Of a stretch of DNA of 64,000 bases, positions 50,401 through 53,400 are shown piece by piece. The DNA is taken from the NCBI RefSeq assembly GCF_031877795.1, contig NC_133946.1:12685144-12749143 (forward strand). Direction: 5' to 3'. The notes below the pieces were generated by a model that did no database searches, was not told the DNA's origin, and saw nothing but the letters and a program-made list of their open reading frames with translations. Each line of letters opens with the position of its first letter. Position 1 is the first letter of the stretch. Position numbers and translations under genes: made by a program. The DNA is from Strix aluco. Its lineage: Eukaryota; Chordata; Aves; Strigiformes; Strigidae.

Positions 50401-53400
50401 ACCTTTGTGAAATGTCTAGACAGTTATTTGCAATCCATCTCTGCTCTCCCTTATGTGTATTTAATACCAGTGAAGTTCTTGATGCTTAGCAGACCAAAAG
50501 TATTTAGTTTGCTTATTTTAAAAGTTACGCCACTTTAACCCCTCTCAGGACAAAATTGTTTCATCCCATGTATAGCAGAGTTCCCTGAAAATGTCATCAC
50601 ATGCTTTAAAGTTTAAAAAAAAAAACGGGGGGGAGAAGTGGGGGTTAAGGAGGGAATTAATCTTAACAGTTTTTAGCCATCTATTTCCTAAATGATGTCT
50701 CTAAATAACTTAGTCACCCTGAGCTGCTTTTGTATGTTTGATGGAAGAAAGATAGGACGAAAGATAACCACTTCCAGAAAGTGATTAATTTCATTGTAAA
50801 ATCAGAAGCATTGCCTTTTGGAGTTGCCTGTTTTTCTTCTGTAGACCATAAAAGAAGTCTTAAAGTGGCATATCGACACAACCTCACGCTAAGGTGGGAA
50901 TGTGAACCCCACCCACCCTGTCAGGTTTGCGTCTGCCTGTTTTTACACAGCACAGTCTGATGCTGATTTACCCACTGTCTGAACTGATAACTTCTCTCAC
51001 CAGTGCTTCTACAGCTGACACAGTTATTCTTTGTGTTAAAGGGATTTTGAAGAATCTGGGTGATGTCAAGTAATTACAGTACAGTTTCTGATTTGTATGA
51101 TACAGACTGCAAACTGTTACACTGGGTGTAGAAGCATGGGTAATTTCCAAGAGTAGTCTGGTTTAAAATTTCGGAATTAATTTTTTTGTTTAGTAACACC
51201 AGAGCTTTACTTTTGTTTAAATGTACGTGGTTCATTGAAGACAATATTCTTTTGCCTTGTTAAATATCTTCAGAAAAGCTTCATTTGGAATTTTAAAGTA
51301 GTCTTCTGTCTGTTAGGATAGTGTTGTCAAATCAAATATCTTTGTCTGTCCAGTTAATTCTTTTATGGTAGTGATGAGTTTAATTGCCTTTCCAAGTGTA
51401 CTCGTTTGCAGAATTTTCTTACTGGTTTGTTAAACTTCTGTTGAAGTATAGTGTCATCTATGTCATCCATAACCATGTAATAGAAGAATGTCTGCATAAT
51501 AAAAAAAAACTATGAGTAGTTTCTGTCTTTGACATGTTCCCTACGCTCAGATAACTCTAAAGTACTTTTTACTTAGAAGTAACAGAAGTGAAGAATAGTT
51601 GATTTGTAGCCTCAGTATTGCTTTTAACAATTATGTTTAGCACATGTAAACTTCTGAGATATCGATTAGGTACAAAGGCAAAAATCTACTTCTAGTTTCT
51701 GGTTTTGTTTATTTGGTTTTTTTTTTAACTAATTTCACAAGTTGATTATCCATTCTGTCACATGAGGCAAATAATTCCTGAGGAATAAAAATTACAAATA
51801 CATGCTCAGGCGAGGGTACCAGCTGCCAGGTTAAGCTGTGCTGATGTGTTAGGGTTTTATGCTGTACCTTTTTGATTACATAATACTGATGGAATGCTGA
51901 TCCCCTCTCCCAGGTGGATGAGAGACTTTCCTATTAAGTTTGAAAGAATGGGTAGGGAGCCCTTCTGAGATGAATGCTGGGGATCAGGCTGAGCAGGAGG
52001 CAGTGGTTTCAAAGTGCAGTGTTGTGAGTTTTAGACAAATAGAAGCTTTGGGGCAGCCAACGAAAATGTGGAATTAAACTTAGTGGCTTTTAACTTGCAA
52101 ATATTTGTGCCCAGTGGAGGGCAGAGTTTACACCAATCCAATGACTGAACACCATCTTTTCTTTTTTTCCTTTCAGATTCATTACTTATGAATTTATTTT
52201 TATGTTGAATGCTTGGGAGTTCTGCATTCTATTATGTCTTCACTCTTTTCCTTTTCTGTTTTGCATGCTTGCTTTTATTACTTCATATGTGCTTACCACT
52301 TTCACTTTACATGGTCTGCTTGGCTTTTTGCTACCAACTTGTTCTGCCAGCACCTGGACTTTTCCATGTCAGAGCTTCAGTTGCAGTTATGTTTAGACTG
52401 GGACCAGCATGATTGGCCCTTCATGCCCTCTATAAAATCTGTGTCAGAGCGTTATCTGGTATGTCCAATGCATAATATGACTGTAATCGTAGTTCTGATT
52501 AAAGATGCATAATTAAATTTATATACCATAGCTGTTTAGTGCAAGGCTGATGGAGAAGGTGTGGTTTCCCCTCTTTGCAGAGATCATACCATGTTTGACA
52601 AATCTGTTCAATGACTTTTCAGTTGGTCATTATTTCAGTGTAAGCTAGAGAAGTTACCTGTTAATCTGAAATATGTACTAACCCTGAGTATTCTGTCAGT
52701 GCCTCTACAGGACTTTATTACTTATTCAAAGTTAGCTTGCCCCAACCAATCTGTGATCACCTGGCTTTCAAAACATTTGTCATATTATTCTTGTCTCTGA
52801 GGTGAAAACAGTGGCAACTCCTCGATGGCAGTAACAGGAGCAGAAAAGCTCTCAAAAATGCAGATGTTTCACATCTGAGAGCTGTTAGCATTTTGCAGCT
52901 GCTTCCTGAAAGACTGGGAGGGTGGGTAAGAAACAGGAGATCTGCAGGAATGCAGGGCATAGCACAGATCTCAGATGTTGTCAAGCTCTGGGCAAGGTTT
53001 TCTTGCAGTCCCCGTGTAGATCAGTCTGCCTTTTGAATAGTCTTGGTCTGGGTAGTTATTACAAACTTTATTTTACATGAAAAAGTAACAAGACAGTTCT
53101 CAGTGGTGGAGGGAGTAATTGACTCTCTATGCATCTAAATAGCCTTGGCAGTTTGTGTTGTGTTTTTGTTATTCAGCAATGTGTGTTCCGATACTAGATA
53201 GACATCAGAAATAGGGATTTGACCTCCAGTGAAATAGTACCTTAAGTGTCTCAGCCAGGTATAATGCTAGATATAAAAAGGGGCCTTTTCTGAAAGAGGG
53301 ATGTGATCCTTTCCTCCTCATTGCGCAGGGGGGTGGCTTATAAAGATGTGTTTACCTTTTTCTCTTGGCAAAGTAGTCTCACTTGGATTTTAATCTGTAT

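Follow-up and report, generated by a model that had tools for sequence, protein, structure and literature searches.

A putative in-frame cassette exon at the dDENN-RUN1 joint of DENND5A, with a counterpart in DENND5B, in the genome of Strix aluco

Reports exist on exons that are preceded by unusually long stretches of intron free of the dinucleotide AG. Gooding et al. have reported that such AG exclusion zones (AGEZs) mark distant branch points and are commoner at cassette exons (Gooding et al., 2006; PMC1431707). Among 235 exons with a zone of at least 100 bases, 68 were cassette exons against 47 expected, and only one-fifth to one-half of the exons in this class were estimated to have distant branch points (PMC1431707). 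PTB exon 11, alpha-tropomyosin exon 3 and GABBR1 exon 23 have AG-free zones of more than 100 bases, and the worked cases in that paper have zones of 287, 381 and 438 bases. In the large-AGEZ exons a branch-like site and a pyrimidine tract lie near the upstream end of the zone, with possible regulatory motifs inside it, and all those analysed experimentally were found to be regulated by PTB (PMC1431707). The zone is common to the equivalent exons of PTB and nPTB, and also to distant species, even where little of the sequence can be aligned (PMC1431707).

The closest described protein to the one considered here is canonical DENND5A, or Rab6IP1, of 1287 residues (PMC3338420). Its RUN1-PLAT part is represented by the crystal chain 3cwz_B, which a PDB sequence match gives as Rab6-interacting protein 1 and whose construct is from mouse (PMC3338420). 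Alternative splicing of mammalian DENND5A has also been recorded. The gene is in a list of QKI targets in mouse cortex (PMC6429586), and skipped-exon events have been reported for it in human multiple sclerosis samples (PMC12428622; PMC11346782). The passages of these three papers that concern DENND5A do not name the exon, and without its identity no link can be made to the exon described below. The titles, abstract openings and passages that the literature search covered name no such exon, and the corresponding parts of two papers on DENND5B (PMC6401118; PMC10415337) hold nothing on DENND5B isoforms. A search of PubMed Central full text with fragments of both peptides returned no papers, a result of small weight, since peptides of this kind are seldom printed in articles. 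Human DENND5B occurs in isoforms that differ by about 35 residues, which may offer a lead.

The present analysis concerns a stretch of 64,000 nucleotides from Strix aluco, called the window (C16:12685144-12749143 of a 1.41 Gb genome in 202 contigs); positions without a contig refer to it. DENND5A lies on the plus strand of the window, where its first 15 exons were placed at 8389 to 61174 by tblastn with an approximate human DENND5A sequence of 1287 or so residues. The same search with this probe found nothing of the gene beyond probe residue 912 within the window, and Rfam gave no matches there at gathering scores. Pfam recognised parts of uDENN and DENN in exon 4 and dDENN in exon 8. Exon 10 translates into 31 residues. 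Exons 10-12 show one difference from 3cwz_B over the first 106 residues of the chain, which opens 11 residues upstream of the exon 10/11 junction and joins exon 10 directly to exon 11 (...NDQRE-KYIQ...), the skipped form. The canonical protein is the same as that of the window, but the chain has nothing between ...NDQRE and KYIQ..., where the candidate would add 36 residues. The initial annotation had placed this insertion between dDENN and RUN1, and the position of dDENN in exon 8 together with the span of 3cwz_B across the exon 10/11 junction bears the placement out. Elsewhere in the gene, exons 6 and 7 (45070-45387 and 47593-47808) correspond in DENND5B to one uninterrupted open stretch (C5:17869659-17870195, minus strand); one of the two paralogues has either lost or acquired the intron between them. 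The features on which the analysis turns are collected in Table 1.

Table 1. Features of the DENND5A candidate exon, its surroundings and its DENND5B counterpart (window positions unless a contig is named)
Feature	Position	Strand	Basis or remark
DENND5A exon 10, upstream neighbour	50242..50335	+	tblastn, 97% identity to human probe; splice sites; ends in phase 0, donor GAG/gtgaaa
AG exclusion zone, 129 bases, predicted distant-branch-point acceptor region	52220..52348	+	plain count between AGs
Branch-point-like TTCAC (YTNAY), A at -109, then pyrimidine tract	52239..52243	+	prediction; aligns with TTTAC in DENND5B
TGCATG inside TGCATGCTT	52262..52267	+	at -89; same 9-mer at -72 in DENND5B, four columns off (MAFFT)
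Putative cassette exon, 36 codons, phase 0-0	52351..52458	+	open frame, splice sites, DENND5B counterpart, single genome match
Donor gtatgt	52459..52464	+	same 6 bases and same last codon CTG in DENND5B counterpart
DENND5A exon 11, downstream neighbour, start of RUN1 part	53426..53557	+	tblastn; 3cwz_B match; phase 0 start
DENND5B counterpart exon, 111 bases, open, phase 0-0	C5:17853359-17853469 (L005:8359-8469)	minus	splice-site scan, longest of cluster

An open segment of 108 bases with phase 0-0 had been described in intron 10 in the initial annotation, and its coordinates, frame and phase were all reproduced. The segment (ag/CAC ... CTG/gtatgt) is exactly 108 bases long and translates into 36 residues without a stop; the other two sense frames contain two stops and one stop. 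Both junctions fall at codon boundaries, so that an insertion of 36 codons between exons 10 and 11 is in frame. Splice sites were scored with a weight matrix built on approximate frequencies. The candidate acceptor scored 7.17 bits, above 4 of the 14 known DENND5A acceptors, and the candidate donor 7.61 bits, above 6 of the 15 known donors. At 5.93 bits the donor of exon 10 (gtgaaa) ranks second-weakest of the 15 in the gene, in agreement with the weakness claimed for it, and the exon 11 acceptor (4.26 bits) is the second-weakest of the known acceptors. As a general feature the weak donor did not hold, for the exon 10 donor of DENND5B is strong at 11.43 bits; the AG-free zone described below is more informative about splicing. 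With Pfam the candidate peptide stayed below cut-off (best E 0.13) and the spliced pieces of 126 and 111 residues matched no RUN domain, a PDB sequence search with the peptide gave no match at E<=10, and tblastn found in the window no convincing second copy that would point to tandem exon duplication (next best E 0.69). Modelled alone, the 36-residue piece formed two short helices (residues 8-19 and 28-35) with a mean pLDDT of 70, which is moderate confidence.

The criteria of the initial annotation, splice sites and an open frame, did not rise above the background of the genome. Pseudo-exons of 60-210 bases were sought with both sites at or above 5 bits and a summed score at least equal to that of the candidate. 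Twenty 10-kb stretches of the genome, scanned on both strands (400 kb-strand), yielded 39 such pseudo-exons with open frames in phase, with 36 distinct donors. The strength of the sites and the frame was rejected as evidence by itself because equally strong pseudo-exons are this common. The sense introns of DENND5A hold four, the candidate included; the other three lie at 9220-9309, 28896-29015 and 48269-48349. Codon usage was dropped as uninformative, the candidate scoring 0.031 per codon where the 15 known exons range from -0.218 to 0.339 and 31% of 9,489 null windows score as high as the candidate. The segment might be a pseudo-exon due to chance, with an open frame that happens to lie between ordinary AG and GT sites, is never spliced and resembles DENND5B by coincidence. 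The frequency of comparable pseudo-exons and the weak codon usage speak for such an origin, and so does the weakness of the peptide similarity given below.

The split between DENND5A and DENND5B is dated to the vertebrate whole-genome duplications. DENND5B was located in the same genome with exon 11 as the query (C5:17850934-17851065, minus strand, 82% identity), and forty kb around this match were examined. Within limits of 84-150 bases, intron 10 of this gene contains a single cluster of pseudo-exons that are open and in frame, with one donor and three possible acceptors and at most 111 bases long; a scan with wider limits adds one open pseudo-exon of 69 bases. The counterpart emerged only from this splice-site scan; tblastn of the DENND5A peptide against DENND5B gave nothing convincing, with the counterpart site present at E 3.1. 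Both segments lie in intron 10 and are open with phase 0-0 (108 and 111 bases), and the DENND5B segment encodes PSEELLLRQNSMAFWEWDQGPPPPARPPKKSFSECCL, for which a PDB sequence search returned two matches only (E 0.67 and 3). In an alignment with one one-codon gap, placed to maximise identity, the segments agree at 10 of the 36 residues and at 47 of the 108 bases. Agreement at codon positions 1, 2 and 3 amounts to 20, 17 and 10 of 36, as old conservation of a coding sequence would give. All ten residues in common, four with identical codons and six differing at the third position only, fall in the last 20 codons. These codons agree at 13, 13 and 7 sites by position, and the first 16 are barely conserved (7, 4 and 3). 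The conserved half of the insert reads W-D-Q...P..P..K-S-x-S-E..L. The two Trp and the acidic character stressed in the initial annotation fared only partly: the first Trp alone aligns in DENND5B, whose segment is proline-rich, and neither trait is conserved. The exact degenerate pattern of the peptide core had no matches in prokaryote and viral contig collections, as expected there.

The likeness of the two segments was measured against several null sets. Among 3,286 codon registers in DENND5B intron 10, the best starts exactly at the counterpart, with a score of 47 against 46 for the runner-up. The agreement at codon positions 1 and 2 was equalled by 1 of 12,653 open null windows, by none of 648 overlapping windows of real DENND5A and DENND5B coding exons, and by 2 of 20,000 codon shuffles; for total identity the corresponding counts were 10, 0 and 29. 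No null pseudo-exon, whether among 76 open ones or among 1,087 taken in any frame, reached the exon-to-exon global DNA score, and none of the 1,087 reached the local DNA score with flanks. The local exon-only DNA score was equalled by none of the 76 but by 7 of the 1,087. Peptide similarity alone is weak, since of 20,000 shuffles of the DENND5B peptide 247 reached the global score and 778 the local one; 1 of 78 null pseudo-exons scored higher at the peptide level (this open set shrinks to the 76 once acceptors close to the beginning of a stretch, and sites close to the end, are excluded). A whole-intron blastn alignment was not significant, which also leans towards chance. The exon-over-exon match only tied for first place (E 0.032), its bits were reached by 41 of 200 dinucleotide shuffles, and introns 7, 9 and 12 gave better E-values from T-rich or T/G-rich simple sequence.

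The acceptor of each segment is also preceded by an AG exclusion zone that exceeds 100 bases, with 129 in DENND5A and 126 in DENND5B. The former is the longest of the 211 AG gaps in intron 10 (next longest 64) and the latter the longest of 196 in its intron (next longest 81). At 22 known acceptors, 14 in DENND5A and 8 in DENND5B, the AG-free stretch was at most 74 bases, by a measure that gives single acceptors one base more than the plain count between AGs. In null DNA, 14 of 28,679 AG gaps were 120 bases or longer, as were 7 of 3,014 among gaps with pyrimidine-rich ends. The zone counts as independent support because it played no part in choosing either segment. In both genes the 120 bases upstream are 72.5% pyrimidine; the range for 14 known DENND5A exons is 47-62%. 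The YTNAY sequences at -112 in DENND5A and -105 in DENND5B align with each other; that in DENND5B is the only one in its zone, and the DENND5A zone has five more at -77 to -45. TGCATG in the AG-free zone we take to be an RBFOX-type motif. It is not enriched over the window as a whole (54 occurrences against 45.7 expected), and 37 of 1,087 null upstream regions share with that of the candidate a word of at least nine bases holding all four letters. A QKI-type bipartite site about 200 bases downstream of the donor (TAAT at 52662 and ACTAAC at 52677, 52662-52682) was set aside; ten such sites occur on the plus strand of the window. The only other AG-free stretch of more than 110 bases in the DENND5A introns searched is in intron 4 (30732-30888; AG to AG 30730-30865). 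It is T/G-rich and probably due to chance, and the AG-to-GT segment after it, 22 bases long, would cause a frameshift.

The candidate resembles the large-AGEZ exons described by Gooding et al. in having a zone of more than 100 bases with possible regulatory motifs inside and, towards its upstream end, a pyrimidine tract and a candidate branch site; the arrangement is common to paralogues, as it is in PTB and nPTB (PMC1431707). The zones are shorter than those of the worked cases (PMC1431707), and, unlike the exons described there, the DENND5A candidate also has possible branch sites nearer the acceptor; the branch point and PTB dependence are here predictions. A chance origin would leave unexplained a DENND5B segment with the same intron, phase and donor, near-equal length and the best codon register, as well as two acceptors that each end the longest AG-free gap of their intron, and we regard it as very unlikely. 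The candidate goes beyond chance because of the DENND5B counterpart and the AG-free zone, neither of which was available to the initial annotation, and the core claim of an in-frame cassette exon is backed by both. The exon, which could lengthen a trafficking protein by 36 residues, appears to be real because the sister gene, DENND5B, carries in this genome a corresponding exon at the same place, and the splicing signals of the two correspond as well. The segment is therefore very probably a genuine, regulated cassette exon of DENND5A that is older than the DENND5A/DENND5B duplication and has been kept in both genes.

An ancestral exon in decay, formerly used in both genes and now little spliced in Strix aluco, would account for a first half of the peptide that is barely alike between the two and for the lack of the insert in 3cwz_B, the sole PDB chain matched. 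Both copies nevertheless retain an open frame, usable splice sites, the same donor sequence and an uninterrupted AG-free zone, features which, if unused, should erode within tens of millions of years, and decay appears highly improbable. A real exon that is constitutive in this lineage rather than optional would suit the weakness of two neighbouring sites, the donor of exon 10 and the acceptor of exon 11, and the reading frame is preserved with or without the exon. Against constitutive use, 3cwz_B joins exon 10 straight to exon 11, and long AG-free zones are associated with cassette use (PMC1431707); this reading is extremely unlikely. Exonization of a mobile element, for which no supporting point was found, can practically be dismissed, since each of the two peptides (E<=10) and the candidate DNA gave one match in the whole 1.41 Gb, in a search that undercounts repeats, and the segment is common to two paralogues at the same place.

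As a regulated cassette exon, the candidate would depend for splicing on a branch point some 100-110 bases upstream. Between the branch point and the acceptor, PTB-type regulators may act on the pyrimidine tract and RBFOX-type regulators on TGCATG. Their binding would keep the exon out of most mRNAs, which gives the canonical form, and would admit it in particular cells. Inclusion would add 36 residues (37 in DENND5B) just before RUN1, most likely a short segment for docking or phosphorylation by which the contact between dDENN and RUN1 is loosened or re-set. A contact re-set in this way could shift the balance of Rab39 exchange against Rab6 binding, and an insert at the dDENN-RUN1 joint would be well placed to change the balance of the exchange factor. 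Control of access to the exchange module, as put forward in the initial annotation, may be a consequence.

DENND5A is linked to neurodevelopmental disease. A link to neurodevelopmental disease has also been reported for DENND5B, where the disease residues Ser559 and Arg749 lie on either side of the modelled dDENN-RUN1 interface, and two states of the exchange factor have been speculated upon (PMC10940048). These residues flank the joint into which the insert would go. A wider proposal, which we offer as tentative and rather doubtful, is that DENND5A and DENND5B share an overlooked isoform switch fixed before the duplication at the base of the vertebrates. A cassette exon with a distant branch point would insert W-D-Q...K-S-x-S-E at the dDENN-RUN1 joint and toggle the protein between a Rab39-exchange and a Rab6-effector state according to cell type. 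The combination of a paralogue comparison with an AG-free-zone test shows how one genome can provide support for a cassette exon even without RNA. Should the exon be in use, variants that create any AG in an otherwise ignored intronic stretch of 130 bases could disturb splicing, and a little-studied class of isoforms may exist in both DENND5A and DENND5B.
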